DNA from: Agromyces mediolanus
Lineage (GTDB): Bacteria > Actinomycetota > Actinomycetes > Actinomycetales > Microbacteriaceae
NCBI RefSeq assembly: GCF_023715325.1
Contig: NZ_JAMBNX010000005.1
Coordinates: forward strand, 1 to 64,000
Direction of reading: 5' to 3'
Length of the DNA: 64,000 nucleotides
Below are positions 9,502 through 45,099 of the stretch, in pieces. Under the pieces are notes generated by a model. That model searched no databases. It worked only from the letters and a program-made list of their open reading frames with translations, and had not been told where the DNA came from. How positions within the stretch are numbered: the stretch's first letter is position 1; every line of letters begins with the position of its first letter. A program made the position numbers and the translations under genes.

Positions 9502-9524
9502 GCGCCGGGCCGGACGGGGAGCAC

Positions 9525-27918: not shown

Positions 27919-29181
27919 ATGGCGGCACGGCACGGGAGACAGCGGCGCCCGAGCGCGTGGCGCGCGCTCGGAAAGGGGCTCGCCGTGTGCGTCACGGTGC
28001 TGCTCGTCTCCACGTTGGGCGTCGCCGCGTATGCCACGGCCGACCTGTACGACGACCTCCAGGAGCCGCCGACGTTCACGCTCGAGAGCGAGGAGGTGCT
28101 CGCCGAGATCCCGGACATCGGGGTGATGGACGGCGGTCTGACCTTCTTCCTCGCCGGCATCGACAAGCGGCCGGCGGACGGTTCGTTCGGGGACCCCGAG
28201 GAGGACTCGGCGGTCCTGAACGATGTGAACCTGCTGGTGCACATCGCGCAGGACCACTCGCACGTCGAGGTCGTGAGCTTCCCGCGCGACCTGCTCGTCA
28301 GCGTGCCCGAGTGCGCCGACCCGAACGGGGCGGAGGGCGAGACGCTCTCGGCGATGTCGAGCGCGAAGATCAACACCGTGTTCCAGCACGGCGGCCTGGG
28401 CTGCGTGGCGCAGACGGTCGAGGAACTCGTCGGCATCCCGATTCCCCTGGCGGGCGTGGTGGAGTTCGCCGGCGTCGCCGCGATCAGCGAGGCGATCGGC
28501 GGCGTCGAGGTCTGCCTCGTCGACCCCATCGACGATCCGTGGTCGGGGCTGAACCTCCCGGCGGGCACGCACTCGATCTCCGGGCTGACCGCGCTCGCCT
28601 TCCTGCGCACCCGGCACGCGGTGGGCGACGGCTCCGACCTCGGCCGCATCTCCAGCCAGCAGGCCTTCATGGCCTCGCTCATGCGCAAGGTGCAGGCCGA
28701 GGGGGTGCTCGACGACCCGATCCGGCTGTACTCGATCGCGAAGGCCGCGCTCGCGAACATGCAGCTCTCGAGCTATCTGCAGGACCCGGCGACGCTCATC
28801 TCGATCGCCAGGACGGTGCAGGACCTCGACCTGTCGAAGATCGTCTTCGTGCAGTATCCGACGAGCTACACCGAGGACCTGTCCGCCGTCGTGCCATCCG
28901 AGTCGGCCGAGGCGATCAACACGGCCCTGCAGGCTGACGCGCCCATCGCGCTCTCGGCGAGCGCCACCGATCGCGCGAGCTTCGGTACCGCGCCGGTGAC
29001 GCCGGCTCCCGAGGCGCCGGCGTCGGAGGGCTCGCTCTCCGAGGATCCGGCCGCCGATCCCGCGACCGTCACGGACGGCGCGGTGGCGACGGATGCCTCG
29101 TCCGACCCTCCAACGCTGCCCGACGACGTCACCGGGCAGTCCGGCAGCGAGGTGCGCTGCGCGACCGCGAACGAAGGCTGA
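27919..29181 (+). CDS. LytR-CpsA-Psr (LCP) family transferase 1
   Basis: A 420-residue membrane enzyme that transfers undecaprenyl-linked polymers to peptidoglycan. One N-terminal helix (residues 20-42) precedes the extracellular LCP domain: VNLLVHIAQDHSHVEVVSFPRD near 110-128 includes the conserved Arg/Asp pair, then KINTVFQHGG near 152, GGVEVCLVDPID near 196 and FLRTRHAVGDGSDLGR near 235. An Ala/Pro/Ser-rich tail ends in VTGQSGSEVRC. The ATG has GGGGGA about 8 nt upstream. Paralogous with the gene at 29441. Confidence 0.9.
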   Translation: MAARHGRQRRPSAWRALGKGLAVCVTVLLVSTLGVAAYATADLYDDLQEPPTFTLESEEVLAEIPDIGVMDGGLTFFLAGIDKRPADGSFGDPEEDSAVLNDVNLLVHIAQDHSHVEVVSFPRDLLVSVPECADPNGAEGETLSAMSSAKINTVFQHGGLGCVAQTVEELVGIPIPLAGVVEFAGVAAISEAIGGVEVCLVDPIDDPWSGLNLPAGTHSISGLTALAFLRTRHAVGDGSDLGRISSQQAFMASLMRKVQAEGVLDDPIRLYSIAKAALANMQLSSYLQDPATLISIARTVQDLDLSKIVFVQYPTSYTEDLSAVVPSESAEAINTALQADAPIALSASATDRASFGTAPVTPAPEAPASEGSLSEDPAADPATVTDGAVATDASSDPPTLPDDVTGQSGSEVRCATANEG

Positions 29182-29317: not shown

Positions 29318-29402
29318 GGAGGGCTGTCCGAGCGGCCGATGGAGCTGGTCTTGAAAACCAGTGGGCAGCAATGCCTCGTGGGTTCGAATCCCACGCCCTC
29401 CG
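29318..29402 (+). tRNA. tRNA-Ser (anticodon UGA)
   Basis: Acceptor GGAGGGC (29318-29324) pairs with GCCCTCC (29395-29401), discriminator G at 29402. The anticodon loop CTTGAAA is closed by CTGGT/ACCAG, giving TGA. A long variable arm and GGGTTCGAATCCC T-arm are present, as for serine tRNAs. CCA is not encoded. TAGAAT at 29251-29256 is a possible -10. Confidence 0.95.
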
Positions 29403-29440: not shown

Positions 29441-30748
29441 TTGCCTCACGACGTGCAGCCCACTTCGCGGCGCTCCGCCAAGACGCCGTCGCTCGCGCGC
29501 CACGGTCGACTCCGCCGCAGCGCGGCATGGAAGACGATCATGAAAAGCGTCGCGGCGGTCGCCGCCGTCACGCTCGTCTCGGGCGGCGCGGTCGCGGCCT
29601 ACGCCGCGTGGGACCTCGCGGCGACGGCGCAGCCGACGGTCACCCTCGACAGTGAGAAGGTGCTCGAGGGCGTGCCCGATGTCGGCGCCATCGAGGGCGG
29701 CGTGAACCTGCTCGTCATCGGCAGCGACAGCCGTCAGGGGCAGGGTGGTGGATTCGGCGACCCCGACGAGGAAACCGCCGTGCTGAACGACGTGACCATG
29801 CTCGTGCACATCTCCGAGGACCACTCGCACGTCGAGGTCGTGAGCTTCCCCCGCGACATGTACGTCTCCGTTCCCGGCACCTGCAACGATCCCGAGAATC
29901 CCGACGAGGAGCTCTCGGCGCTCTCGAGCGTGAAGCTGAACAGCGTGCTCGCGTACGGCGGCATGGACTGCGTCGTGAAGACAATCGAGGAGCTCACCGG
30001 CGTCACGATCCCGTTCGCGGGCATCGTGCAGTTCATGGGCGTGGCCGGGCTTTCGGAGGCCGTCGGCGGCGTCGAGGTCTGCGTGGCCGAGCCCATCGAG
30101 GACCCGTACACCGACACCTACCTCGACGCCGGCATGCACGAGCTCTCCGGGATCGCGGCACTGCAGTTCCTCCGCGTGCGACACGGCGTCGGCGACGGAT
30201 CCGACCTCGGGCGCATCTCGAACCAGCAGGTGTTCCTCTCCGCGCTGGCCCGTCAGCTGCAGTCCGACGGCACGCTCGGCGACCCGGTGAAGCTCTACAG
30301 CATCGCGAAGGTCGCCCTCGCGAACATGCAGCTGTCCTCGAGCCTTACCGACCCGACGCGCATGATCTCCATTGCGAAGGCGATGAAGGACGTCGACCTC
30401 TCGAAGGTCGCGTTCGTCCAGTACCCGACCGGCTACACGGGCGACGGGGTGGTTCCCGCCGAGTCGGCCGAGCTCGTGAACCAGGCGCTGCAGAACGACA
30501 TGCCGATCAGCTTCGACCCGAGCGCCGACCAGACCGACTTCGCCTCGGCGGCCGACCCGAACGCACCGGCCGCGCCGAACGCGGACGTGGCGGCCGAGGG
30601 CGACCCGGGCGAGGCTCCGGCCGGGGATGGCTCGAGCGACGCCCCCGTCGAGTCCACCCCGCCGCCCGGCACACTGCCGAGCGACGTCACCGGCCAGACC
30701 GCGGCCGAGGTGCGCTGCTCCGCGGGGCGCACCCTCGCCGACCAGTAG
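29441..30748 (+). CDS. LytR-CpsA-Psr (LCP) family transferase 2
   Basis: A 435-residue paralogue of the gene at 27919 with the same layout: N-terminal helix (about residues 30-52), LCP domain with VEVVSFPRDMYVSVPG near 135, SVKLNSVLAYGG near 165 and FLRVRHGVGDGSDLGR near 245, then an acidic Ala/Pro tail ending VTGQTAAEVRC. The TTG start is chosen because GGAAGGAA lies 6 nt upstream; a GTG four codons on is the alternative. It begins 38 nt after tRNA-Ser(UGA) with no terminator between, so cotranscription with the tRNA is possible. Confidence 0.88.
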   Translation: MPHDVQPTSRRSAKTPSLARHGRLRRSAAWKTIMKSVAAVAAVTLVSGGAVAAYAAWDLAATAQPTVTLDSEKVLEGVPDVGAIEGGVNLLVIGSDSRQGQGGGFGDPDEETAVLNDVTMLVHISEDHSHVEVVSFPRDMYVSVPGTCNDPENPDEELSALSSVKLNSVLAYGGMDCVVKTIEELTGVTIPFAGIVQFMGVAGLSEAVGGVEVCVAEPIEDPYTDTYLDAGMHELSGIAALQFLRVRHGVGDGSDLGRISNQQVFLSALARQLQSDGTLGDPVKLYSIAKVALANMQLSSSLTDPTRMISIAKAMKDVDLSKVAFVQYPTGYTGDGVVPAESAELVNQALQNDMPISFDPSADQTDFASAADPNAPAAPNADVAAEGDPGEAPAGDGSSDAPVESTPPPGTLPSDVTGQTAAEVRCSAGRTLADQ

Positions 30749-30822: not shown

Positions 30823-30914
30823 GGAGACGTCGCATAGTCCGGTCGAGTGCACCACCCTGCTAAGGTGGAGTCCCCGTAAGGGGACCGCGGGTTCAAATCC
30901 CGCCGTCTCCGCCA
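30823..30914 (+). tRNA. tRNA-Ser (anticodon GCU)
   Basis: Acceptor GGAGACG (30823-30829) pairs with CGTCTCC (30904-30910); discriminator G and an encoded CCA follow (30911-30914). The anticodon loop CTGCTAA lies between CCACC and GGTGG, giving GCT. The variable arm is long and the T-arm is GGGTTCAAATCCC. TATGAT at 30788-30793 is a probable -10. Its 3' end starts a segment that recurs twice downstream. Confidence 0.95.
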
Positions 30915-30962
30915 CTCGAACGCCCCCGCTGTGTGCGGGGGCGTTCGTCGTTTCGGGTGGCG
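30913..30962 (+). terminator. tRNA-Ser terminator; direct-repeat copy 1
   Basis: Stem CGAACGCCCCCGC (30917-30929), loop TGTGT, complementary arm 30935-30947, then TCGTTT: a good factor-independent terminator for the tRNA. The 50-bp segment from the last tRNA bases to GGGTGGCG at 30962 recurs at 35569-35619 and 40654-40704. Confidence 0.85.
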
Positions 30963-31021
30963 CCGGTGCGTGATCTGACCGACCTCGAGGGAGCCGTACG
31001 TGGGCTCCTCGAAACGCGGGA

Positions 31022-33247
31022 TCAGCTCCTGGAATTCGGGTCTCTGACGAGGTCGCCGATCAGCTCGGCCCGGCGGCCAGCTGCGACGGCTTCGGCACGG
31101 GTCGTCGCGCCGAGCTTCTGGTAGATCGACTTGATGTGGCTGCGAGCGGTGTTGGCCGAGATGAACAGCTCGGAGCCGATCTCCGCTGCGCTCAGCGAAG
31201 TCGGCAGGAGCTCGAGCACCTCGAGCTCACGCCGGCTCAGGTGACCGCGGACCGGCCGACGGGACCGCGCCCCGTGTAGCGAGGCGCGCAGAGCGGAGAT
31301 CCGAGTGAGGAGCGCGCCGACGTCGACCGCGCCGTCGCACAGTTCCTCCGCTTGGGTGAGTGCGATAAGCGCTTCGCTGCGACGCCCGAGTGCGGCTTCG
31401 GCACGGCCAAGCTCTATGAGCAGGTACGGCACGGCGAGCACCGTGTCACTCGGCTGCTGACGCGCGACACCCAGCGCGTGCATGACGGTCGCCCGCGCGG
31501 CGTCAGGAGCGCCGGTTTCGGTGTGCTGCCGTGCGATGGCCTGCTCAGCCGACAGGTAGACCGGGTCGGCGCCGACCTCGAACGCGATACGGGCGCGCTG
31601 CATCCGGTCGATCTGCATCGTGGCTGCGGCCCGATCGCCGAGTTCGAAATCGCACAGGGCGCGGTACGCGGGCACCAGCACTCGCAGCGGTCGCGGAAGC
31701 GGCGCACCTCGGTCGAGCGCATCGAGCAGTTCGAGTGCTTCTGCGCAGCGTCCGGCGAGGTAGCGCATCGTGGCCAGCCGCAGCGCGACGAGAGGGGAGA
31801 GTGGGTTGGAGGGATCATGTCCGGCGAGGAAGCGTTCACCCGCGCGCGTCGCCGCTCCGACATCGTTGTAGCACGCCATCGAGTGGACGAAATCCTCGAC
31901 GTCGTCCCAGCTGTCGAAGCCCTCGACAGCTCGCTCACCCGCTGCGCGGCGCCCACGCGCGAGAGCGCGGTCGCGTCGAGCGGGGTCGCCGCCTGTCGCC
32001 GTCGCCCAGGCCTCCCAGAACGCGAGTCGCGGGTCGCGGTTCAGTGCGGACTCCGGGATGCGATCGAGCCAGCTCAGCCCGAGTGACTGCCTCGGTACGA
32101 CCGCGTTCGCTCGGACGTTGGACAGGATGTCCGCGACGGTGTCGTAGTCCTCGGCGCCGATGAGGTGGTGGATCGAGAGGGCAAGGTCGTGTTCAGGCTC
32201 GAGTGCGGCGAAGGCAAGACGGTGCAGAGCCCGGCGGCGCTCGGGGTTCCCGCGTTCGAGCTCAGCGGTCAGACGGTCACGCACCAGCTGGTGCATGCGC
32301 CACCACCTGCCCTCGCCGTCGAGACCGACGATCAGGCCGGTGCGTTCGGCGACCTCCATGGCGAGAGGCCATGCGCGTGCGTCCCCGAGGACGGCGTCGA
32401 CCGTCGCTGCGTCGAAGCGCTCGAAGATCGAGAGCATCTGTAGCAGTGAGTGGTCCTCGGGCGAACTGCCGGCGAGCCCCTCGCGCACGAGTGCGTCGAG
32501 GCCGCCGCCTTCGGCCCGCCCGGCGGTCGCGCGGGGGAGAACGACGCCGCGGGAGAGGGCGGAGGCGACGAGCGAGACGGCCGCCGGCCAGCCATCGGTC
32601 AGGTCCTCCAAATGGGCGAGCTCTCTCGCATCGAGCCGCAGACCGTACGACGTGTCGAGGAGCTCCGCCGTCTGACGTGCGTCGAGCCGCAGTTCGTCGA
32701 TGCCGAGCTCCATCCCCCGGCCGCGGGCCTGCAGACGCTCGAACGTGGGCAGCTCGAGAGCGGTCCTCGTGATGATCACCGTCATCACGTTGTCCGGTGC
32801 GTGCCCGAGAAACCAGTCGAGGCTCGCCAGTGTGCTTTCTCGGTCGAGCAGGTGCGCGTCGTCGAGGACGAGCGTCCACGGAGCAGGCGAGGCGGCGAAC
32901 GCGTCGATCAACGGCACGATCAGGCCGGCACGTACTCCTCCTGCGGGAGCCGCGCCGCTGCGGTGGGGCTGGTGCAGCCCAGCGGCTGTTGCGCCAGCGG
33001 TGACGGCCAGCCAGAGGCCCTCCGGATCGTCGTCGTCCTGATCGAGGCTCACCCAGATGCCCCGCGGGCCGTCTCCCTGGCCGCTGTCGCTCAGCCACTG
33101 AGCGACAGCGGTTGTCTTGCCGTAGCCCGCCGGTGCACGGACGACGAGTGCTGACGGACGTTCCCGGCTCGCGCGTTCGAAGACTGCCGGTCTCGCGACC
33201 GCATGGGCGGCGGAGACCGGTGGGCGGAACTTCGTCACCGGGAACAT
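31022..33247 (-). CDS. LuxR-family regulator, large ATP-binding (MalT/LAL) type
   Basis: A 741-residue STAND-type transcription activator. Walker A APAGYGKTT (residues 38-46), Walker B TLVLDDAH near 124, a winged-helix and TPR-like helical middle (about 300-660), and a C-terminal LuxR HTH (LSRRELEVLELLPTSLSAAE near 680, SHIKSIYQKLGATTRAEAV near 710). Such proteins respond to small inducers. It diverges from the CPBP protease gene, a plausible target. Base composition is lower in G+C than the flanking core genes. A degraded copy of its C-terminal coding end is at 35693-35814. Confidence 0.85.
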   Translation of the reverse strand: MFPVTKFRPPVSAAHAVARPAVFERASRERPSALVVRAPAGYGKTTAVAQWLSDSGQGDGPRGIWVSLDQDDDDPEGLWLAVTAGATAAGLHQPHRSGAAPAGGVRAGLIVPLIDAFAASPAPWTLVLDDAHLLDRESTLASLDWFLGHAPDNVMTVIITRTALELPTFERLQARGRGMELGIDELRLDARQTAELLDTSYGLRLDARELAHLEDLTDGWPAAVSLVASALSRGVVLPRATAGRAEGGGLDALVREGLAGSSPEDHSLLQMLSIFERFDAATVDAVLGDARAWPLAMEVAERTGLIVGLDGEGRWWRMHQLVRDRLTAELERGNPERRRALHRLAFAALEPEHDLALSIHHLIGAEDYDTVADILSNVRANAVVPRQSLGLSWLDRIPESALNRDPRLAFWEAWATATGGDPARRDRALARGRRAAGERAVEGFDSWDDVEDFVHSMACYNDVGAATRAGERFLAGHDPSNPLSPLVALRLATMRYLAGRCAEALELLDALDRGAPLPRPLRVLVPAYRALCDFELGDRAAATMQIDRMQRARIAFEVGADPVYLSAEQAIARQHTETGAPDAARATVMHALGVARQQPSDTVLAVPYLLIELGRAEAALGRRSEALIALTQAEELCDGAVDVGALLTRISALRASLHGARSRRPVRGHLSRRELEVLELLPTSLSAAEIGSELFISANTARSHIKSIYQKLGATTRAEAVAAGRRAELIGDLVRDPNSRS

Positions 33248-33414
33248 CGTTCACATTCTGGCGCGTCGGATTCACCTAGGTGAAGTCTCGGCCGACGCGC
33301 GCGCGGTCGGGAGCGTCGACAGTATCGTCGAAGGGCTCGCGGCGCATTCGTCGGGTGCGGTACGAGCATGCCGGGGTGTCGACTGCGCCCCCGTCGGGGA
33401 GAAGGGAACGTTCA

Positions 33415-34293
33415 GTGGCCGATCACGAAGCAACGGTGGCCGGCGCGTCCGGCTGGCGCGCGTTTTGGAACCGCGGCGGGTGGTGGAAGGCGCTCATTGT
33501 GGTCGTCGTCTACGGCGTCATTTATCAGTTCCTCCCGTTGCTCTTCACGCCGCTCTTTGCCGGGGTCGAGGGGCAGGCGCTGCTGGAGTCGCCGGGGAGC
33601 GTGTTCGCGCAGGTTGGCTTCGCCGTGCTCCTCGGGTCCGTGGTGCTTCTCGCGTTCGCATGGACCCTGGGGTGGCTGCCGGGTCCGCTGTTCACCAGGC
33701 AGCCCGTCTACCGCCGGTGGTGGATGTGGATCGCGCCGGTGCTCGTGCTGATTCCGATCGTGCTACGGCTGATCGGTATCGACTGGGGCCTCTACAGCGC
33801 CGGCGTCGTCGCCGTCGCCATGCTCTCCGGCCTCTTGGTCGGCTTGGCTGAGGAACTGCTCTTCCGTGGCCTCGTGGTCGAGTTGATGCGCAAGGCGGGT
33901 CACAAGGAGTGGGCGGTCGCAGCGGTCTCCTCGTTGTTTTTCGCCCTGATGCACTCGACCAACATCTTCACGGGACAGCCTGTCGGCACCGTCGCGTACA
34001 CGCTCGTGTACACGTTCTGCTTCGGTGTGCTCATGTACCTCGTCATGCGAGTCACGGGCAACCTCATCTGGGCCGTCATCCTGCACGGACTCACCGACCC
34101 GACCGGGTTCCTCGCGGTGGGCGGTATCGACGAGAACGCCTCAGGCACGACCAACGCCGCCCTCGCTCTCGTCGGCGCGGCGACCTGGCTGCTCATGATC
34201 GGCGCACTCGTGCTGCTGATCTTCATCCGAGGACAGGCGTCCCCGCGTCTCGCGGCCGGCGTCGCCGCAGCACCCGCAGCGCGGACGAGCTGA
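33415..34293 (+). CDS. CPBP-family intramembrane protease
   Basis: A 292-residue polytopic membrane protein with the CAAX-protease/bacteriocin-processing (CPBP) motifs: EELLFRG near residue 145, FALMH near 175 and HGLTD near 223, the glutamate and histidines of the intramembrane active site. About eight hydrophobic segments. Such proteins process or confer self-immunity to peptides, or have unknown roles. The GTG start is chosen because GGAGAAGGGA lies 7 nt upstream. Divergent from the LuxR regulator, which may control it. Confidence 0.82.
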   Translation: MADHEATVAGASGWRAFWNRGGWWKALIVVVVYGVIYQFLPLLFTPLFAGVEGQALLESPGSVFAQVGFAVLLGSVVLLAFAWTLGWLPGPLFTRQPVYRRWWMWIAPVLVLIPIVLRLIGIDWGLYSAGVVAVAMLSGLLVGLAEELLFRGLVVELMRKAGHKEWAVAAVSSLFFALMHSTNIFTGQPVGTVAYTLVYTFCFGVLMYLVMRVTGNLIWAVILHGLTDPTGFLAVGGIDENASGTTNAALALVGAATWLLMIGALVLLIFIRGQASPRLAAGVAAAPAARTS

Positions 34294-34302
34294 CCAGAGG
34301 AA

Positions 34303-34336
34303 GTGCCGAGCGTGCGAGTTGCCTGACGCTCGGCAC
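34303..34336 (+). terminator. Hairpin after the CPBP gene
   Basis: Eleven-bp perfect stem (GTGCCGAGCGT at 34303-34313 with its complement at 34326-34336), 12-nt loop, 10 nt after the CPBP stop. The rest of the 273-nt gap to 34567 shows no gene. Confidence 0.7.
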
Positions 34337-34566
34337 CGGTCGTCCGCCTTGCGGTTCGTTGTGGCGCGGAGGTTTGCGGAGACGACGAGGAAGGTGCGAG
34401 GACTGTTGTGCCGCCGGGAGCGCGCATTCGTCGTTCACCTCTGATTTCGAACGCTTCGAAGTGGGTGTAGTTACCCAGATAGGAGATGCGTGCTGCTGAG
34501 TAATGGCGTTGGCTGCAACTCCGGACTGGCCGTTGCGGACTGAAGCAAGGAGCGTAGCGTAAAGCT

Positions 34567-35046
34567 ATGAAGCGCACTCAAGACCGTCCCTTCGATCCGA
34601 CCGAAACGGACCGTCGCGAGATCGCCGGGTTCGGTGCATCACTTGTGGTCGCTGAACCCGGCGAGCCGCTGATGCTCCGGGGTTGGAGCTGGGAATCGCA
34701 CAACGGCACAACAATCTTTGGGGAGGCCGGCTACCTTACCGACGCTGAGCAGGAAGTGCGAGTCCGGACGTGGAAGCACCTTCCTGGTTTCTCCGAGGCC
34801 GATGCAGCGCAAGCTCATCTCGCTGACCTGCGTGATAACTTCGCGGCGGGCGAGCCAACACCGGCAGACTCCGTCGGGGTGATCGTCGATGGCGAAGAAC
34901 ACCTTGCTGCTCGATTCTCCACAGGTGGCTTTGACCTCGCCATCTGCCGCCTCGACGGCGTGACGCTCACAATCGCTTGGCCTGCTGACTCGCTGCTTCC
35001 CAAGTTGGTCGATTCAGCCGGAGGTTCACCCGGCGTCATGAGGTAG
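34567..35046 (+). CDS. Hypothetical protein, island gene
   Basis: A 159-residue soluble acidic protein that I do not recognise. No signal peptide or membrane segment; a repeated beta-rich look (GEAGYLTDAEQEVRVRTW, GVIVDGEEHLAARF) suggests a small alpha/beta fold. Codons are less G+C-biased than in neighbours outside the island, suggesting transfer. TAGCGT lies 6 nt before the ATG; an AAGGAG is present but too far upstream to act as a ribosome site. Not obviously co-transcribed with the CPBP gene, which ends in a hairpin. Confidence 0.65.
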   Translation: MKRTQDRPFDPTETDRREIAGFGASLVVAEPGEPLMLRGWSWESHNGTTIFGEAGYLTDAEQEVRVRTWKHLPGFSEADAAQAHLADLRDNFAAGEPTPADSVGVIVDGEEHLAARFSTGGFDLAICRLDGVTLTIAWPADSLLPKLVDSAGGSPGVMR

Positions 35047-35112
35047 CGCGGGATCTGCCGACGTCGCGAGCCTGACAGGATGAACTTCGCGACGCGGGTG
35101 GCCTGCGGTCGG

Positions 35113-35280
35113 CTACGGCCGCTTCAGAATGGGGGTTGCAGCGATGTGCTCCTGCATGCTTCCCGCCCGGGTGAGGGTGTTGTCGACCAGGTTGCGGAGC
35201 GGCTGGTCGCTATTGAGCCACTCAGTGGCGAATTCGGCAGGTATGAGGACGGGCGCCCGGTCGTGGATGGGCGAACAAGA
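35113..35280 (-). pseudogene. Fragment of a SRAP (SOS-response-associated peptidase) gene, probable
   Basis: About 52 C-terminal codons (IHDRAPVLIPAEFATEWLN, then RNLVDNTLTRAG) resemble the conserved HDRxPV(I/L)LP...WL segment of SRAP/YedK/HMCES proteins. The catalytic N-terminal cysteine region is missing; upstream sequence in the same frame is unrelated. It is therefore a decayed remnant. Identification rests on one motif, so moderate certainty. The surrounding gap 35047-35862 holds no intact gene. Confidence 0.45.
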
Positions 35281-35568
35281 CATTGGCGTGCTTCTCTGGG
35301 AGGAGTTGATCGTTTGCGGTTTTGACAAACGCGAGTCTTTGCGAGGGACGGCGGCACCTCTCAAGTCCAGAGGCGGCACGTCTTGTCCCCGAAGGCGGCG
35401 GAGATTCGACGACCACTCATCCATCTGAGATGAGCCCATCCACTCGGGCTCGCGCACCGATTGAAATCGCGCTGGAGGATTTTTCCGCTCATGCGAGAGG
35501 ATTACCCACTGAAGCACAGAATCAGTGCTCGGTGATGATGCGGATCTGAGAGATTTCAGATCACGCCC

Positions 35569-35619
35569 CACTCGAAACGCCCCCGCTGAGTGCGGGGGCG
35601 TTCGTCGTTTCGGGTGGCG
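35569..35619. repeat. Direct-repeat copy 2 of the tRNA-Ser terminator segment
   Basis: Same hairpin and flanks as 30913-30962, with one extra A before the stem and GAG instead of TGT in the loop. About 31 further bases to its left match copy 3 at 26 positions (GCGGATC..GAGAT..CAGA..CACGCC). Confidence 0.85.
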
Positions 35620-35692
35620 GGCGTGGGCGCTTGAGAAATGACTGGGCCCTGCTCGAACACGTGAGCAGCCTCTGGTTTTCGGCTCTTTTGAT

Positions 35693-35814
35693 CATGCCGC
35701 CGATCAGCTCAGCCCAGCGGCCGCGGCGACGGCTTCGGCGCGGGTTGTCGCGCCGAGCGCCTGGCAAATCGACGTGATGCGACTGCGCACCGCGTTGGTC
35801 GGGATGAACAGCTC
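35693..35814 (-). pseudogene. Truncated, frame-shifted copy of the LuxR regulator C-terminus
   Basis: Reading leftwards from 35814 gives ELFIPTNAVRSRITSICQ then ALGATTRAEAVAA, clearly homologous to ELFISANTARSHIKSIYQ of the gene at 31022. A one-base loss then shifts the frame; the continuation RWAELIGG appears in the neighbouring frame, and a stop occurs at 35704. Everything N-terminal is missing; the homology stops where the terminator hairpin of the next gene begins. Confidence 0.8.
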
Positions 35815-35847
35815 GGGCCGCGGAACCGGATGGTTCCGCGGCCCGAG
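35812..35847 (-). terminator. Perfect 16-bp hairpin after the repeat-protein gene
   Basis: CTCGGGCCGCGGAACC (35812-35827), loop GGAT, exact complement 35832-35847. It lies 15 nt past the stop at 35863 of the minus-strand gene. No U-tract. Confidence 0.75.
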
Positions 35848-35862
35848 TTCGGTACCGCCGGC

Positions 35863-38800
35863 CTACTCAGCCAGGCGGCGGCGCCGGATCATGAGCATCC
35901 CGCCGATCCCGAACAGCCCGATCGCGGCGATCCCGAGGCCCCAGGCGATCGTCGTGCCGGTCGTCGCGAGCGGATCGTTGGACGCCGGCGGGACGGCGAC
36001 CTCGGTGATCTTCGCTGTGGACGGCTCGGAGGTGACCGGATCGCCGCCGGGCGGCGTGACCGTGACCGTGGCGGTGTTCTCGAGCGGCTCGCCGATCAGG
36101 TCGGCCGCGACGACGACGTAGCTCGCCGTGCACACGATCGTCTGGCCGGGCAGGAGCTCAGCGGGCTCCGCCGGGCACACCGGCGCGGTGAGCTTGCCGC
36201 GACCGGTGAACCGGCCCTCGTTGATGACCGGATCGCTCAGGCTCGTGTTGCCCGTGTTCGTCACCGTGAACGAGTACGTCACGAGTTGGCCAGCCTTCGT
36301 GACCTTCTGCACGTCGGCGGTCTTCACCACGGTCGCGGCGGGGTTCGCCGGCTGCGGGACGATCACGGTCGACGGCTCCGACGGCACCTTCTCCCCGGAA
36401 CCGGGCGGGTTGCCCTCCGCTGTAGCGGTGTTGGTGATCTCACCCGCGTCGATGTCGGCCTGGGTCACCGTGTACTCGGTGCTGCACACCACCTGGTCGC
36501 CCGGTGCCAGCGATGCCGCCCCAGCGGGACAGATCGGCGCCTCGAGCGTCCCCGACCCGGTGAACTCGCCCTCGACGACTGAGACGTCGGTCAGGGTCAC
36601 GTTCCCGGTGTTCGTCACGACGAACGAGTAGGTGATCGTCTCGCCGGCGCGGAAGTCGACCGGAGCATTGGGCGACGCGGACTTCACGACCGTGAGGCCG
36701 GGCTCCTGCTCGACCGCGACGGTGGTCGTCGAGGGCTCCGACGGGATCGGGGTCTCCGAGCCCGGCGGCGTTCCCGTCGCACTCGCCGTGTTCTGCAGCG
36801 TGCCTGCGTCGACGTCCGCTTGGGTCACCGTGTAGGTGCTGGTGCAGGTCTGCGCGTCACCCGGTGCGAGCGAGCGCTCCGGGCAGACCGCGGGCGGCAG
36901 CACACCGGTGCCGGTGAAGTTGTCATCGGCGATCTCGATGTTGGACATCGAGACATTCCCAGTGTTCGTGACGAGGAACGAGTAGACGATGCGCTGCCCT
37001 GCCGCCGTGACGGTGGTCACGTCGGCGGACTTCACGAGCTCGAGCCCGGGCGCAGCCGCGGCGGTGACGGTCGCCGTCGACGGCTCCGACACCGGCACAT
37101 CGACACCCGCGGGCGGCGTCGCGGTCGCGGTCGCGGTGTTCGTCACCTCGCCGGCATCCACGTCGTCCTGCGTGACGACGTAGCTGGCCGTGCAGGTGAC
37201 CGGATCGTTCGGCGCCAGCGTCGTCCCGGCCGGGCAGCTGACTTCCAGCGGGCCGGCGCTTCCTGAGAACGCGGCCTCGTCGATGACCGGGTCGGTCAGT
37301 GTGACCGTCCCGGTGTTCGTGACGAGGAAGGAGTACTCGACGGTGTCGCCGGCCTTGGTGACCGCCTGCGGGTTCGCGGACTTCACGAGGGTGAGCTCGG
37401 GGGTCCGGTCGGTGTCGACGGTCGTCTCGGACGGCGGCGTGGTGATCTTCCCACCGCCGGGCGGCGTGCCGGTCGCGGTCGCCGAGTTCGTCACCTCACC
37501 GGCATCGATGTCGGCCTGCGTGAGCGTGTACTCCGCGGTGCAGGTCGTCGTCCCGGTCGGGGCGAGGGTCGGGTCGGGGCAGGTCACTGCACCGAGGGTT
37601 CCGGTGCCGGAGAACTCGCCCTCCTCGACGGCGATGTCCGACACGGTCACGTTGCCCGTGTTCGTCACGAGGAAGGAGTAGGTGATCACCTCACCCGCGA
37701 CGCCGCTGCCGGCGACGCTTCCCGACTTGACCACGGTGAGAGCGGGTGCGGCCTCGATCGTGACCGCCGCCGACGACGGCCCCGAAACCGGGTCCAGAGT
37801 GGCGGGTCCGTCGGCGGACGCGGTCGCGGTGTTCGTCACCGTTCCCGCGTCGACGTCGGCCTGCGTGAGCTCGTACTCGGCGGTGCACGTTACGGTCTGG
37901 CCGGGGATGAACGGGTCAGCCGGGCAGCTCGCCACGGGAGCAGGACCGGTGCCCGAGAATGCGAGCTCGGTGATCGCCGCGCTCTGCACCGTCACGTTCC
38001 CGGTGTTCGTCACCGCGAACGAGTAGTTGAGCGTTTCCCCAGCCTTCGTCGGCTTCGCCGGGCTGACGCTCTTGACGAGCGAGATCGCCGGGGCCGGGGC
38101 CACCGGGATCGTGACCTCGGACGGCGGCGTGGTGATCTTCTCGCCCCCGGGCGGGGTGCCGGTCGCTGTCGCGGAGTTCGTCAGGGACAGTGCGTCGACA
38201 TCGGCCTGGGTGAGGGTGTAGTCGGCCGTGCAGATGACCTGCTCGTTCGGAGCAAGAGTGTCCGTGCCGGCGGGACAAGTGATCGCACCCATCGGGTCAC
38301 TCCCCGAGAACGACGCCTCGTCGATCGCGATATCGCTGATCGGCACGTTGCCCGTGTTGGTGACAACGAAGGAGTAGGTGATCGCCTGCCCGACCGTGTA
38401 GGCAGCCGCGTCCGACGGGGACGCCGACTTCACGACCGACAGGTTCGGCGCCGGCGCGGTCGTCGGCGTGTGGGTCGTCGACGGCGCCGAGGTGATCGGC
38501 GTCGAGGTGCCCTCCGGCGTCGCGGTCGCGGTGGCCGAGTTGTCGACTCCGCCGGCCGTTTCGTCGTCGGCGGTGATCGTGTACGCCGCATCCGCCGTGC
38601 ACGTCACGGTCGCGCCGGGCGCGAGCGCGCCTGCCGGGCAAGTGACCGCTCCGATCTTCGGGTCGTCGACCGCGACGTCGTTGAGCGCGACGAGGCCGGT
38701 GTTCGTGACCGTGAAGGTGTACTCGATCGTGTCGCCGGCGTCGACGATGCCGTCGCTGTTGGCGTCGACGGGGGTGCCCGCGTGCTTGACGAACGACACG

Positions 38801-40071
38801 GAGGCCGGGTTCGCCGTCGTCGACGAGGTGTTGTTCGCGGTGTTCGGGTCCTGCTCGTTGGCCGTGACCCTCGCGGTGTTCGTTACGGCGGAGGTCACGT
38901 TCGCCGGAGCGTTCGCGGTGATCGTGATCGTGGTCGAGTCACCGGCCACGAGACGACCACCGGTGCAGACGACGTCGGCGCCCGCGACGGTGCAGCCGGG
39001 CGTGCTCGAGGCGGCACCGGTCAGCGGCGCGGGAACCGCATCACGGACGGAGTACCCGCTCGAGTTGCCCGGGCCGTTGTTCGTCACGGTCAGCGTGTAT
39101 TCGACCGGGCCACCGGCCGGCAGGAGCACCGCCGGACCCGTCTTCTCGATCGCGAGGTCGGTCGGCTGACCGGGCGAGGCGGCGCCGTCGTTGTTCCCGC
39201 TCCCGGGACCGGTCGTCCTCGACACGACGGTGAAGGTCGGCGTCGCGCTGCCCGGGTTCGTGACCGCGATCTGTGTCACTGTTCCGGAGCTGTTCTGGGA
39301 GAAGCCCAGGTTTCCGTTGCCATAGGTCCAGTTCGCACCGGAGACATCGGTCGCACCATTCAGGAAGAACGGGGCCGGGTAGAACGTGACAGTGCCCGAG
39401 GCTGGATTGATGCGCGCGATCTGCGACGCTCCACCGCTGGTTGAGTGACCCCAGAAGAAGCCGTTGGCGAACGTGAAGTCGGACACCTGCGACGCTTGGC
39501 TCAGCGTCACCGTGCGGGCCACCGCGCCGGTGCTCACGTTGATCGCGGTGAGCGTGTTCGACCCGCTGGTGGTGATGTAGAAGAGCCCGTCGCCACCGAA
39601 TGCGCCGACGTTGGCGTTTATTCCGTAGGTCTGGGTTCCCACGCGCGTGATGACCCCACCCTCACCGATCCGAATCAGGGATGAAGTCGGGAGGGCGGCG
39701 TTTCCGGCGGTGACGATGCCGTACAGGTAGTTGTTCGCCGTGTTGTATCCGATGGCGTTGTACGAGACCGCCGAGACTGGACCTTCAGGGCTGAAGCTCA
39801 CATTGCCGGCGGCGTCGGTGACTGCCTTGTTCAAACCGGTCGGCACGCCCTGCGCGACGAACACCAGCGGGTCGGCGGCGGGGAAGGCGTCACCCGGCGC
39901 CGCCGCCGCAGGAGCAGCCGAGAGGGCGCCGAGTCCAACCAGGCTCGCGGTCGCGAGCAGACCACTCGCGAGGCCGGCGAGCAGCCTCGAATACGGACGG
40001 ACGCCGGCGGTTCGCCGACGTCCAGGTTGTGTCCTCGTCCCCGTTCGAGGTCGTTTGAACGCAGGCGTCAT
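35863..40071 (-). CDS. Cell-wall-anchored repeat protein (DUF11/DUF7507 repeats, LATTG sortase signal)
   Basis: A 1402-residue secreted surface protein. Signal peptide at residues 1-58 (long basic n-region, AAPAAAAPGD cleavage area); residues 60-290 resemble a DUF6923-like beta-propeller (IGYNTANNYLYGIV, LIRIGEGGVITRVG); one DUF11 domain to about 410; then eight repeats of 105-130 residues, each opening VVKSxxP and containing YSFxVTNTGN and TQADVDAG; and a C-terminal LATTG at 1368, hydrophobic helix and RRRR tail, as for class E sortase substrates. SD-like AGGGGGG lies upstream of the ATG. No sortase gene is in the window. Role inferred: adhesion or surface layer. Confidence 0.88.
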   Translation of the reverse strand: MTPAFKRPRTGTRTQPGRRRTAGVRPYSRLLAGLASGLLATASLVGLGALSAAPAAAAPGDAFPAADPLVFVAQGVPTGLNKAVTDAAGNVSFSPEGPVSAVSYNAIGYNTANNYLYGIVTAGNAALPTSSLIRIGEGGVITRVGTQTYGINANVGAFGGDGLFYITTSGSNTLTAINVSTGAVARTVTLSQASQVSDFTFANGFFWGHSTSGGASQIARINPASGTVTFYPAPFFLNGATDVSGANWTYGNGNLGFSQNSSGTVTQIAVTNPGSATPTFTVVSRTTGPGSGNNDGAASPGQPTDLAIEKTGPAVLLPAGGPVEYTLTVTNNGPGNSSGYSVRDAVPAPLTGAASSTPGCTVAGADVVCTGGRLVAGDSTTITITANAPANVTSAVTNTARVTANEQDPNTANNTSSTTANPASVSFVKHAGTPVDANSDGIVDAGDTIEYTFTVTNTGLVALNDVAVDDPKIGAVTCPAGALAPGATVTCTADAAYTITADDETAGGVDNSATATATPEGTSTPITSAPSTTHTPTTAPAPNLSVVKSASPSDAAAYTVGQAITYSFVVTNTGNVPISDIAIDEASFSGSDPMGAITCPAGTDTLAPNEQVICTADYTLTQADVDALSLTNSATATGTPPGGEKITTPPSEVTIPVAPAPAISLVKSVSPAKPTKAGETLNYSFAVTNTGNVTVQSAAITELAFSGTGPAPVASCPADPFIPGQTVTCTAEYELTQADVDAGTVTNTATASADGPATLDPVSGPSSAAVTIEAAPALTVVKSGSVAGSGVAGEVITYSFLVTNTGNVTVSDIAVEEGEFSGTGTLGAVTCPDPTLAPTGTTTCTAEYTLTQADIDAGEVTNSATATGTPPGGGKITTPPSETTVDTDRTPELTLVKSANPQAVTKAGDTVEYSFLVTNTGTVTLTDPVIDEAAFSGSAGPLEVSCPAGTTLAPNDPVTCTASYVVTQDDVDAGEVTNTATATATPPAGVDVPVSEPSTATVTAAAAPGLELVKSADVTTVTAAGQRIVYSFLVTNTGNVSMSNIEIADDNFTGTGVLPPAVCPERSLAPGDAQTCTSTYTVTQADVDAGTLQNTASATGTPPGSETPIPSEPSTTTVAVEQEPGLTVVKSASPNAPVDFRAGETITYSFVVTNTGNVTLTDVSVVEGEFTGSGTLEAPICPAGAASLAPGDQVVCSTEYTVTQADIDAGEITNTATAEGNPPGSGEKVPSEPSTVIVPQPANPAATVVKTADVQKVTKAGQLVTYSFTVTNTGNTSLSDPVINEGRFTGRGKLTAPVCPAEPAELLPGQTIVCTASYVVVAADLIGEPLENTATVTVTPPGGDPVTSEPSTAKITEVAVPPASNDPLATTGTTIAWGLGIAAIGLFGIGGMLMIRRRRLAE

Positions 40072-40731
40072 CCTGAGGGTCCCCCCTTTTTTCGGGCGCG
40101 CCGAGCGCGCCCCATCCCGAATCTCCCGAATCGCAGACCGAGCACGAGCTCAAGGTCCACTCTCAGTCACCGTACAGAGGACCCAAGGCCAATTCAAGGA
40201 GACTCCGGCGTGCCGACCACCCCCGAACGAGGGTGAATACCGTGCTCGGGGTTGGGGGCATCTCCGCTGCGCGTGAGACCGCAGAACGGATATGCCAACC
40301 GCCTCGCGCCCCTGCGGGCGACGCCGAGCCCGACGGATGGTTGAACGGGCCGCAGGCTGGCGGGCCCGGCCGGTACCGCACAAGCTGTCGATCGTGTCCC
40401 GGCACACGTCAGAGTCCACCGCGGTCCGCGGAAGACGCGGGCCCTGGGCAAGCTAGACCCGGGCGCCGCGAGTTCAACGACTAGGTCGGCGCCGCCTGTG
40501 CCCTTCTACGCCGGAAGGACCTCACCGAATGGACCGAGAGTCCCACCGCAGACGTCGGCAGAGGATTATCGCGGTGGCGCGGAGGATTACCGTGACGCGA
40601 GACGAATCAGAGGGCACCCACGGTGCGGATCAGTGAGATCTCAGACCACGCCCCACTCGAAACGCCCCCGCTGTGTGCGGGGGCGTTCGTCGTTTCGGGT
40701 GGCGGGTGAGCGTTGGGGTGCGTCGCCGTCG
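40072..40731. other. Intergenic region, no gene recognised
   Basis: 660 nt between the surface-protein start and the deaminase stop. It must carry the surface-protein promoter (not identified with confidence), contains a GC-rich palindrome GGGCGCGCCGAGCGCGCCC near 40096-40114, a short direct repeat GAGGATTAYCG near 40562 and 40584, and ends with the third terminator repeat. Open frames here overlap one another on both strands and look non-coding. Confidence 0.6.
40654..40704. repeat. Direct-repeat copy 3 of the tRNA-Ser terminator segment
   Basis: Matches 35569-35619 apart from the loop (TGTGT here, as in copy 1). It marks the right end of the proposed island, 28 nt before the deaminase stop, and can serve as that gene's terminator in reverse. 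Confidence 0.85.
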
Positions 40732-41238
40732 CTAGCGGTCCGTCGCCGAGCGGTATCGCCGGCGCTGCAGTTCCTTGACCTCGTCGATGAGCTCGGGCGC
40801 CGGGCCGGTGACGGGGATCCCCGGTGCGACGGCGTTGATCGGCAGCGCGGCGACCGGCCCGGGCTCGAGCCCCCAGTCGGCGCGCCACTGCACCAGCTGC
40901 GCGGACGCGGTGGCGTAGACGATCCGGCCGAGGCCGACCCAGGCGTGCGCTGCCGAGCACATCGGGCAGTGCTCGCCGGAGGTGTACACGACCGCGTGCC
41001 GACGCTCGGCCTGAGTCAGGTTCTCGGCGGCCCAGCGCGCGATCTCGAATTCGGGATGCCGGGTCTCGTCGCCGTCGGCGACTCGATTGCGGTCCTCAAA
41101 GCGAACGGCTCCGGTGGAATCGACGAGCAGTGAGCCGAACGGTTCGTCGCCCGCCTCCAGCGCCTCGCGTGCGAGTTCGACGCAGCGACGCAGAAACGCG
41201 AGATCCTGCGGGTCGGTGACCGTGTGCTGTGCGTTCAA
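40732..41238 (-). CDS. Nucleoside/base deaminase (CMP/dCMP deaminase fold)
   Basis: A 168-residue zinc deaminase. The catalytic motif is HPE (residues 61-63, in place of the commoner HAE) and the zinc pair is in EHCPMCSAA near 90. The family includes guanine deaminase and tRNA adenosine deaminase-like enzymes; the real tadA is usually core and elsewhere. Start TTG is preferred because GAGGGGG lies about 6 nt upstream and the helix FLRRCVELAREALEAGDEPFG follows. First gene right of the island. Confidence 0.8.
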   Translation of the reverse strand: MNAQHTVTDPQDLAFLRRCVELAREALEAGDEPFGSLLVDSTGAVRFEDRNRVADGDETRHPEFEIARWAAENLTQAERRHAVVYTSGEHCPMCSAAHAWVGLGRIVYATASAQLVQWRADWGLEPGPVAALPINAVAPGIPVTGPAPELIDEVKELQRRRYRSATDR

Positions 41239-43440: not shown

Positions 43441-43462
43441 TTAGGTAGACTGGTCTACCTAA
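43441..43462 (+). promoter_or_regulatory. Perfect TetR operator over the -10 box
   Basis: Arms TTAGGTAGAC (43441-43450) and GTCTACCTAA (43453-43462) with a 2-nt centre form a perfect inverted repeat. It contains TAGACT (43446-43451), the likely -10 of the tetR-eamA operon, so binding would shut off its own promoter. Confidence 0.75.
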
Positions 43463-43477
43463 GTCGAGGAGGGCAGG

Positions 43478-44062
43478 ATGCCGGCAGAAGCGACACGCCG
43501 CCAGGGCGGCGCGCGACAGCGCATCCTCGAGGCGGCCGCCCGGCGGTTCTACGCCGACGGGGTGAGCGCGACGGGGATCGACGCGATCACGGCCGAGGCA
43601 GGGGTAGCGAAGATGAGCCTCTACAACAACTTCGACTCGAAGGCTGCGTTGGTGGAGGCCTATCTCGAAGCCCGGCACGAGGAGTGGCTCGGGCTGTTCC
43701 GGGCACGCGCGGCCAGCGCCGCGGGGCCCGCCGAGCGCGTCCTGGCCGTCTTCGACGCGTACCTCGACCACGCCGGCGCCGCCTACGAGCACGGGTTCCG
43801 CGGCTGCGGCCTGCTGAACGCCGCGGCCGAGCTGCCCAGCGATGCGCCGGGCCGGCGCGCCGTCCGCGCGCACAAGGAAGAGGTCGAGCGGCTGCTCCTC
43901 GACGGGGTGCGGGAACTCGTCGATCCGGCGCGGGCCGAGCATGTCGCCGAGCACCTCGCCTTCCTCCTCGAGGGTGCGATGGCCCGCGCGGGTCTCGAGG
44001 GGAGCGACCAGCGGCTGCGCGACGCCCGACGGATCGCCGCCGAGCTGATCGTCGAGCGGTGA
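43478..44062 (+). CDS. TetR-family repressor
   Basis: A 194-residue regulator: HTH in residues 14-55 (ILEAAARRFYADGVSATGIDAI, KMSLYNNFDSKAALVEAYL), with a C-terminal ligand domain (FRGCGLLNAAAEL near 107) of the TetR_C_ type that often has a conserved Cys-Gly. GAGGAGGGCAGG precedes the ATG. It overlaps the EamA gene by 4 nt. The perfect operator just upstream implies autorepression and joint control of the transporter. Confidence 0.9.
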   Translation: MPAEATRRQGGARQRILEAAARRFYADGVSATGIDAITAEAGVAKMSLYNNFDSKAALVEAYLEARHEEWLGLFRARAASAAGPAERVLAVFDAYLDHAGAAYEHGFRGCGLLNAAAELPSDAPGRRAVRAHKEEVERLLLDGVRELVDPARAEHVAEHLAFLLEGAMARAGLEGSDQRLRDARRIAAELIVER

Positions 44063-45099
44063 ACCGCTCGACGGCCGGCACGCTCGCGGTACTCACCGCA
44101 GCTCTGCTCTGGGGGACCACGGGCACGGCGGCGAGTCTCGCGCCGTCGGTGCCGCCGATCGCCGTCGGCGCCTTCGCCATGGGGGTCGGTGGGCTCCTGC
44201 AAGCGCTGATCGCCGTGCCCGCGCTCCGTGCGTCGCGCGCCGGACTCGGCCGGATGCGGGGTCTCGTCCTGCTCGGGGCGGCGGCCGTCGTCGTCTACCC
44301 GTTGGCCTTCTACGCCTCCATGCGGCTCGCCGGTGTCGCGGTCGGCACGGTCGTGTCCATCGCCTCGACCCCGCTCTTCTCGGCCGTGCTCGAACGGGTC
44401 GTCGACCGGGTGCGCTTCTCGCCGCGCTGGGCGGTCGCGGCCCTTCTCGCCGTCGGCGGCAGCACGGTCCTCTGCCTCGCCGGGGCGGAGGAAATCGGAT
44501 CCGACGCGGCGGCGACGGTCGGGGGCGTAGCGCTCGGCCTGGCGGCGGGCGCCGCCTATGCCGTGTACAGCTGGGCGGTCCACCGGGTGATGCGCGGCGG
44601 TGTGCCTCGGGCGGCCGCGATGGGGGCGGTGTTCGGGGTGGGCGGGCTCGCGCTGCTGCCGGTGGTGCTCGTGACCGGCGGGCCGATCCTCGCCAGCCCG
44701 ATGACCGTGTCGGTCGCGGTCTACCTGGCCCTGGTGCCGATGTTCCTCGGCTACGTCTGCTTCGGCGTCGGACTCGACCGCATCCGCGCGAGCACGGCTA
44801 CCACCCTCACCCTGGGCGAACCGGCCGTGGCCGCCGTCCTCGCCGTCACGGTGGTCGGGGAGTCGCTGCCGCCCGTCGGTTGGCTGGGGCTCGCGGTCAT
44901 CGGCGTCGGCCTCGCCGTCCTGGTGGTGCCCCGCCGACGACGGAGCGGGCGGTCGCCGTGCCCTCAGAACTGGGGGCAGCCGACTCCGCACTGTGCGCGT
45001 CCAACTGAGGCGGAGATCACCTTCCGCATGGTTGGATCCAAGAAGGGGTTCCAGCATCTCGGCGCTGCACGACTCGACGCTGATCCGTCCCGCCGCTGA
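44059..45099 (+). CDS. EamA/DMT-type transporter with unusual C-terminal tail
   Basis: A membrane protein of 346 residues with about ten hydrophobic helices in two EamA halves (ALLWGTTGTAAS near residue 13; AAYAVYSWAVHR near 170; TTLTLGEPAVAAVLAV near 248). Such proteins export small metabolites or drugs. Start GTG overlaps the TetR stop (GTGA). After RRRRSGR near 300 come about 45 polar, Cys/Trp/His-containing residues unlike the family, suggesting that the original stop was lost and translation now reads into spacer DNA. Confidence 0.85.
   Translation: MNRSTAGTLAVLTAALLWGTTGTAASLAPSVPPIAVGAFAMGVGGLLQALIAVPALRASRAGLGRMRGLVLLGAAAVVVYPLAFYASMRLAGVAVGTVVSIASTPLFSAVLERVVDRVRFSPRWAVAALLAVGGSTVLCLAGAEEIGSDAAATVGGVALGLAAGAAYAVYSWAVHRVMRGGVPRAAAMGAVFGVGGLALLPVVLVTGGPILASPMTVSVAVYLALVPMFLGYVCFGVGLDRIRASTATTLTLGEPAVAAVLAVTVVGESLPPVGWLGLAVIGVGLAVLVVPRRRRSGRSPCPQNWGQPTPHCARPTEAEITFRMVGSKKGFQHLGAARLDADPSRR

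Follow-up and report, generated by a model that had tools for sequence, protein, structure and literature searches.

Downstream of an intact tRNA-Ser(GCU) gene in Agromyces mediolanus, three copies of the tRNA's terminator enclose two stretches of dissimilar cargo genes, and here we describe this locus, its relatives, and the case that the two stretches are units of integrative elements that use tRNA 3' ends. The window, by which we mean the whole 64,000-nucleotide stretch analyzed (G000:C55:1-64000), belongs to a genome (G000) of 4.04 Mb in 89 contigs.

Two units behind tRNA-Ser(GCU)

The features that define the two units are the following:

30823..30914, + strand: tRNA-Ser(GCU), the target gene, intact (ARAGORN)
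30912..30917, + strand: CCACTC target at the tRNA 3' end, site 1, without an adjoining element end
30913..30962, + strand: terminator copy 1
30915..35567: unit 1, cargo flanked by copy 1 and right end 1, extent taken from its boundaries
35470..35567, + strand: right end 1, with GAGGAT at 35475 and 35497 and the terminal inverted repeat GAGATTTCAGATCACGCC at 35550-35567
35568..35573, + strand: CCACTC target copy 2
35569..35619, + strand: terminator copy 2
35568..40652: unit 2, cargo flanked by copy 2 and right end 2, extent taken from its boundaries
40555..40652, + strand: right end 2, with GAGGAT at 40561 and 40582 and the inverted repeat GAGATCTCAGACCACGCC at 40635-40652
40653..40658, + strand: CCACTC target copy 3
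40654..40704, + strand: terminator copy 3

The three terminator copies stand in direct orientation, the first immediately 3' of the tRNA. A sequence-only reading of this DNA had placed a 50-bp repeat at 30913, 35569, and 40654, and a search with a 47-base pattern, allowing up to 3 mismatches, recovered these three sites in the window and none in 100 shuffles. Across the hairpin and its tail, copy 1 is identical to copy 3 at 44/44 positions and to copy 2 at 43/44, and one A is absent from copy 1 (CCACTCGAACG versus CCACTCGAAACG). No further site with this hairpin (up to 3 mismatches) was found in the 4.04 Mb of G000, which disposes of the idea, raised in the same reading as a possible refutation, that the segment is a common terminator found at unrelated loci. 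The repeat had also been described as running from the last bases of the tRNA. The repeat is real, but tRNA sequence in copies 2 and 3 is limited to CCA, which leads us to reject a plain tRNA 3'-end att site; what is conserved is a right end, a 6-bp target, and a displaced terminator.

Copies 2 and 3 are each preceded by their own stretch of about 98 bp, in which two GAGGAT repeats 21 to 22 bp apart lead to GATYTCAGAYCACGCC, CCACTC, and the terminator. This right end closes with GAGATTTCAGATCACGCC in one case and GAGATCTCAGACCACGCC in the other, then CCACTCGAAACGCC. A left flank shared by copies 2 and 3 had been noted before at about 31 bp; it is indeed shared, but over about 98 bp, with 69/100 positions identical. 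The right end before copy 2 matches that of another member of the genus, Agromyces mediolanus JCM 3346 (G003, record NZ_BMRJ01000002.1), at 81/98 aligned positions, while 500 random window segments reach at most 55%. Right end 1 is thus nearer to its counterpart in G003 than to right end 2, and at least two separate arrivals are therefore likely, as the sequence-only reading had proposed. The window contains the GAGGAT pair itself twice, while 100 shuffles gave 0.01 pairs on average and never more than 1.

The two units are alike at both edges and differ in cargo. On the left, the 3' end of a luxR gene forms the flank common to terminator copies 1 and 2 (114/143 aligned positions), and a native-type terminator stands where a left end would be expected. 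The earlier remark that no integrase is visible was borne out: no recombination gene was found in the window among the scanned open reading frames (ORFs) or by tblastn, none of the five ORFs scanned between the terminator copies is an integrase, and the sole Phage_integrase match of contig C55, at C55:213912, lies outside the window. The genes in and beside the units are these:

31022..33247, - strand: LuxR-family regulator, 741 amino acids, C-terminal GerE domain, cargo
33280..34293, + strand: CPBP (Rce1-like) membrane protease, cargo, divergent from luxR
34567..35046, + strand: orphan ORF, 159 amino acids, lower GC, cargo
35113..35571, - strand: possible SRAP fragment, cargo remnant (E=0.0017, below the Pfam cut-off)
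35682..35822, - strand: second luxR 3'-end fragment, matching unit 1 at 114/143 aligned positions
35863..40071, - strand: surface protein, 1402 amino acids, DUF6923 and DUF11/DUF7507 repeats, cargo
40732..41238, - strand: dCMP/cytidine-deaminase family deaminase in the right flank, found near tRNA-Ser(GCU) in G003 and in a second relative, G065, as well

Both the lower-GC genes and the large surface protein reported earlier between the copies are there: GC content is about 61-63% at roughly 34.3-35.7 kb against about 70% in the surroundings, and the 1402-residue protein with its DUF7507 repeats is accompanied by the weak SRAP fragment. Searched at E<=1e-60 in 60 Agromyces genomes, the luxR gene (31022..33247) had two matches, one being the window's own and the other lying at another locus in G019, and luxR as the native neighbor of the tRNA is not supported by this count. 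G019 likewise has the divergent luxR and CPBP genes of unit 1 side by side (C1:2500094), away from tRNA-Ser(GCU), and the two may be an accessory pair that moves as a module. Unit 1 DNA had no relative among plasmids, and the SRAP fragment had none among phages. Upstream of the units, stretches at 28186-28769 and 29753-30336, the second inside a LytR-CpsA-Psr gene, repeat each other at 73-83% DNA identity and alternate with two tRNA-Ser genes (UGA at 29318, GCU at 30823); they are probably a tandem pair of LytR-CpsA-Psr-type genes.

Related elements and a gene module beside tRNAs

In G003, tRNA-Ser(GCU) is followed by CCACTC and then by GGCGTGATCTGAAATCTC, which repeats the final 18 bases of right end 1 exactly in inverted orientation, and a matching right end with CCACTC and terminator lies 21.7 kb downstream of this left end. 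The left end of G065 is near-identical to that of G003, and beside the left end both genomes retain a C-terminal remnant of an IS1182-like DDE transposase-like protein that we call TnpL (68.6% over 51 amino acids in G003 and 63.8% over 47 in G065, compared with the protein of G044). Matches to the 18-base pattern with up to 2 mismatches occur in 8 of 60 Agromyces genomes; at the tRNA-Ser locus lie both matches of G000, two of the three of G003, and one of the two of G065, and the remaining ones have no tRNA within the fetched 3 kb. Strong matches to the window-type right end were confined to G000 and G003 among the 60 Agromyces genomes, and a DNA search of 398 Microbacteriaceae genomes gave only weak short matches outside G000, with G003 not listed among the matches. 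The sequence-only reading had predicted an empty site in relatives, a single terminator joined to the deaminase gene. It was not seen in the two nearest, G003 and G065, the only genomes examined for it, where the deaminase lies 43.7 kb and 24.2 kb from the tRNA, respectively. Within the window, positions 43442-44931 show 85% identity to the TetR-EamA portion of the island in G003 (8904-10392 in joined G003 coordinates), a likeness that points to genes having been reshuffled around the hotspot.

A precise empty site was found for a related island. In G042, 50.7 kb lie between tRNA-Ser(GCU) and its terminator with CACTTG on both sides, and in G043 the same site is empty, identity between the two genomes being 98.7% across the 159 bp that finish at the tRNA end and 92.8% across the 635 bp that begin with the terminator. 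The right end of the G042 island carries the GAGGAT pair of the window type. When a second copy of the tRNA flank was sought in 19 relatives, mostly in stretches of about 16 kb, no direct repeat was found.

Element ends were sought in 7 of 22 loci, and in all seven sequences searched downstream we found an inverted copy of the left end and, right after it, the same 5 to 6 bp that stand beside the tRNA. In a test using 12 end bases plus 6 target bases, no shuffle of 200 did as well for G078, G109, G283, and G042, and 1/200 did for G145. G109 has two right ends, its first element directly abutting the left end of a second unit of 17.9 kb. Queried by tblastn with proteins of G042 and G044, that unit yielded no TnpL or YR gene (YR, tyrosine-recombinase-fold protein); with both ends present, this second unit looks like tandem accretion of a cargo-only unit. 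Two exact GAGGAT repeats were present in 7/11 right ends, located at -93/-71 in five of them, at -92/-71 in unit 2 of the window, and at -103/-81 in G145. Over 1.23 Mb, counting both strands, the pair occurred eight times, six of them at right ends and the other two, both in G044, away from any end; a wider scan of the fetched loci turned up a few more pairs, some in apparent coding sequence. Outside Agromyces, right-end-like sequences with the GAGGAT pair were seen at L239 (G310), where a hairpin terminator follows, and at L275 (G153).

At the tRNA end of the elements in G042 and G044 lies a module of TnpL (ORFs of 642 and 678 amino acids), two YR genes, and a helix-turn-helix gene. The TnpL and YR proteins of G042 have no Pfam match at E<=1 and no NCBIfam match at E<=0.1. 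In an alignment of 20 of the 22 TnpL ORFs (all but L271 and L280), D, D, E, and R are invariant and K is present in 19/20, in a spacing that we take to resemble the YREK signature of IS4-type transposases. The NCBIfam IS1182 model matches 4/20 of these proteins (best E 6.9e-6), and a DDE model of Pfam weakly matches 2/20 (best E 0.051). Profiles of the two YR families match the XerC-like structure 4a8e (E 2.7e-15 for the larger protein, 1.1e-9 for the smaller), and Pfam Phage_integrase is reached by 8/21 of the smaller family, with a best E of 0.00014. In alignments of 40 of the 45 YR ORFs, with active-site columns assigned by eye, Arg I is present in 6/19 of the larger and 0/21 of the smaller proteins, the His of HxxR in 0/19 and 0/21, Arg II in 18/19 and 21/21, and the Tyr in 12/19 and 4/21; judged from these alignments, the active sites look degraded. 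Relatives of TnpL were absent from the viral contigs and phages searched. Among plasmids, five Streptomyces records match TnpL at 24-27% identity, and the smaller YR had no relative. We found no description of this module in the accessible parts of the literature searched, a search whose reach did not extend to subscription papers and preprints.

At E<=1e-10, a relative of TnpL was found in 54 of 398 Microbacteriaceae genomes, representing 29 of 85 genera. Twenty loci in 19 genomes, chosen from the higher-scoring matches in the 54, were inspected: TnpL was present in all of them, accompanied by a single YR gene at one locus and by at least two at the other 19. ARAGORN placed a tRNA on the convergent strand in 19/20, and the gap between the TnpL stop codon and the tRNA end was 109-290 bp in 18 loci and 2771 bp in L280. 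At the 20th locus, L268, a 3' fragment of tRNA-Pro was read by eye; Rfam, run on part of the locus, gave no match. The targets include tRNAs for Ser (CGA, GCU), Leu (CAG), Pro (GGG, CGG), Met, and Ala, and most of the 19 left flanks, compared by eye, run from the tRNA through a short repeat module to a hairpin terminator. A palindrome of about 43 bp found 3' of tRNA-Ser in G003, G065, G044, G018, and G021 was considered as a simple transposon end and then as the native tRNA trailer, and both ideas were dropped; from the left flanks compared, it looks like the left-end module of the elements.

The window's own genome carries an intact-looking element of about 34.3 kb (G000:C76, about 68921-103200) at tRNA-Leu(CAG), with TnpL, two YR genes, and both ends. 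The earlier proposal that mobilization was lost or acts in trans can now be sharpened: relatives carry the module, and the C76 element is a possible trans helper for the window units. Its cargo matches Fic, Thoeris ThsB, Hachiman HamB, and copper-handling and cytochrome-assembly families. Across the cargo scans, which covered 88 ORFs from four elements (called with a GC-frame script, module genes excluded, one ORF, L284:5557-7128, lying just outside its element), the cargo was varied and matches to defense-system models included Hachiman HamB, Thoeris ThsB, and IetAS, the families named being among the matches listed.

These elements are not alone in using this tRNA. A classical tyrosine integrase gene lies 68 bp from tRNA-Ser(GCU) in G014 (L048), where a second, unrelated integration system uses this gene, and the flank of G041 (L228) looks alike. 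Repeats of the type GTCxxGGACATCGT directly 3' of tRNA-Ser(GCU) in G007, G060, and G064 are perhaps the ends of another insertion sequence.

Explanations for the stacked units

We favor, with moderate confidence, an explanation in which the window holds two units, cargo-only or decayed, belonging to integrative elements that insert at tRNA 3' ends, stacked at one site and moved in trans. We build it on the repeated ends, the right-end homology with G003, the G042/G043 pair, the module beside tRNAs, and the tandem pair of G109, all read from sequence; the role of TnpL as catalyst, that of the YR proteins as accessories, supply in trans, and the origin of the left-edge terminators are what we infer from them. 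Elements would enter at the 3' end of a tRNA, leaving it intact, and would duplicate 5 to 6 bp beginning with the final base of the tRNA stem end or with the one after it. Short inverted ends bound them, and in many right ends two GAGGAT repeats 21 to 22 bp apart are present as well. TnpL would perform strand transfer, and the degenerate YR proteins may bind the ends or the tRNA target. The window units, lacking the module and each keeping a right end, CCACTC, and a displaced tRNA terminator, would have accumulated one after another at the same site, with the machinery supplied in trans. Two routes could account for the terminators at their left edges: a later element may have taken along the DNA beside an older insertion together with its terminator, or there may have been a later, precise loss of an element that sat next to the tRNA.

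More tentatively, at a level of confidence a little short of even, we extend this to the elements as a group. A DDE transposase related to IS1182 may integrate at tRNA 3' ends while target choice or the holding of the ends falls to two catalytically dead YR proteins that derive from an integrase, and cargo-only units with defense and metabolic genes may ride in trans and stack at tRNAs, which would make these elements a new class of site-specific cargo transposon in Microbacteriaceae.

Several observations weigh against these proposals. A 6-bp duplication cannot explain a 50-bp repeat, and an extra step is needed for the left-edge terminators. Neither window unit has a left end beside it, the G042 module proteins found no match in the window by tblastn (E<=1e-3), and the window's own lineage yielded no empty site. 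The terminal sequence of the C76 element differs from that of the window, and its action on the window ends may be doubtful. In the 12+6-base test, 5/200 shuffles did as well for G044 and 135/200 for the C76 element, the latter being no better than controls; a longer, 16+5-base form gives the C76 element 1 mismatch where none of 300 shuffles had fewer than 4, but this form was picked after the match was seen. An exact GAGGAT pair is missing from 4/11 right ends (G078, both of G109, and G283). As for the proteins, 16/20 TnpL have no IS1182 match at E<=0.1, the TnpL profile had no match in the PDB, and one YR family keeps Arg I in 6/19 and Tyr in 12/19, some members of which may still be active. 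ORFs outside the window were called by scripts.

The strongest alternative, though in our judgment an unlikely one, is classical accretion of cis-mobilizable elements (CIMEs), in which a tyrosine integrase of the type carried by phages or integrative and conjugative elements (ICEs) has been lost and two tandem cis-mobilizable units remain around a 50-bp att core, the terminator. That terminator does lie inside the 50-bp repeat at all three sites, and copy 3 matches G003 at 47/47 positions, as expected of an att identity block; yet in G003, G042, and six other elements, the repeated part is 5 to 6 bp and the ends are inverted. A classical tyrosine integrase does lie 68 bp from the same tRNA in G014, and CIMEs and accretion at a single att site are documented (PMC5704250, PMC3146451), but no aligned YR has the His of HxxR, Arg I survives in only 6/19 and 0/21, and the 19 relatives, in stretches of mostly about 16 kb, have no direct repeat of the tRNA flank. 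Of the accretion idea in the sequence-only reading, the insertion hotspot and its site-specific-looking scars hold up; a classical att duplication of the tRNA 3' end is not supported.

Improbable, in our view, is tandem duplication without mobility, by unequal crossing-over between terminator/luxR copies followed by divergence. The units do share, in the same order, the terminator and luxR end on the left and right-end sequences on the right, but right end 1 is closer to that of G003 (81/98) than to right end 2 (69/100), which argues against a recent in-place duplication. The two units also carry different cargo, and in G003 a right end of this kind flanks another island. Least of all do we credit ordinary reuse of a genus-typical terminator beside unrelated genes, with no meaning for mobility: hairpin terminators do stand directly 3' of tRNA-Ser(GCU) in many other Agromyces genomes and weak terminator-only matches are found in many genomes, but this hairpin occupies three sites only in its own genome, copies 2 and 3 share their right end of about 98 bp, and the GAGGAT pair is in excess of shuffles.

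Comparison with known elements

How tRNA-borne islands without a recognizable integrase move is puzzling, and for one family the borders, one precise empty site, and a recurring module offer an answer that can be tested. Ordinary annotation would miss many TnpL and YR genes, since the G042 proteins match no Pfam or NCBIfam model, although 8/21 of the smaller YR family and 4/20 TnpL do reach one. If the proposed mechanism is true, pairing a DDE transposase with dead recombinases would represent a route to site-specific transposition that is new.

Like tRNA-targeting islands, the elements insert at the 3' end of an intact tRNA; near the borders of the fuller members the YR proteins do not look like catalytic tyrosine integrases, their active sites appearing degraded, and the border repeat measures 50 bp in the window and 5 to 6 bp in G003 and the seven searched sequences. 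Stacked units without recombination genes are known from the ssrA islands of Dehalococcoides and from CIMEs and, in the parts of these reports available, CIMEs and tandem remnants of ICEs and of integrative and mobilizable elements are bordered cargo without recombination genes, stacked at a gene end as here, and are thought to be mobilized with or by other elements, much like the units described here (PMC5704250, PMC3146451). CIME borders are att identity blocks of a tyrosine or serine integrase, whereas our elements, wherever the two borders could be identified, have short inverted ends with 5 to 6 bp. The window units have right ends without left ends, and the second unit of G109 has both ends and no detectable TnpL or YR.

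Similar in the form of their ends are the strand-biased circularizing integrative elements (SEs), described in the available text as having imperfect inverted ends with a 6-bp spacer, several recombinase-type genes at one end, and a small number of selected target sites, as in our elements; in that text they carry two RHRY tyrosine recombinases, Tfp, and Srap, have no DDE transposase, and are reported only in Gammaproteobacteria (PMC10214605). Inverted ends with a 6-bp spacer are found here too (5 bp in one case), and the intA-tfp-intB-srap operon is not: the gene set differs and the active sites are degraded, and this description sets our elements apart. A tie between the SRAP fragment of the window and the SE srap gene was dropped, as the SE product is a hypothetical protein and the window match falls below the Pfam cut-off.

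GInt elements resemble ours in having a tyrosine-recombinase-type operon at one border, one gene of which lacks the active-site arginine; they differ in their four genes, ginABCD, three of them of tyrosine-recombinase type, and the available text does not contain the words transposase, DDE, or tRNA (PMC5385486). Instead of ginABCD with three consecutive recombinase-type genes, YR genes followed by a DDE-type gene are found here. RIT elements and Tn554 share with our elements the use of cooperating tyrosine-recombinase-type genes, and Tn554 also shares site preference, a 6-bp footprint, and inverted ends; in the portions available, both are described without a DDE transposase, whereas our module combines degenerate YR genes with a DDE-type gene (PMC10214605, PMC8138268). 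The three adjacent tyrosine recombinases of RIT are not found either, since the gene next to the YR genes encodes an invariant D-D-E and has no recombinase match.

TnpL is probably a distant relative of the IS1182 family (model match in 4/20, none at E<=0.1 in 16/20, D-D-E in 20/20) and differs from it by its linkage to two YR genes and its position beside tRNA 3' ends. Tn7-like elements pair a DDE transposase with dedicated proteins that select the target, and they use a fixed site in the chromosome. No Pfam match (E<=1) to a TnsB-type core, TnsC, or TniQ was found in the six G042 left-module proteins scanned; the likeness lies in the proposed division of labor between TnpL and the YR proteins and in the fixed tRNA target. 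Set beside these systems, the elements are best placed as a variant of tRNA-targeting integrative elements, one for which the literature searched held no earlier description.

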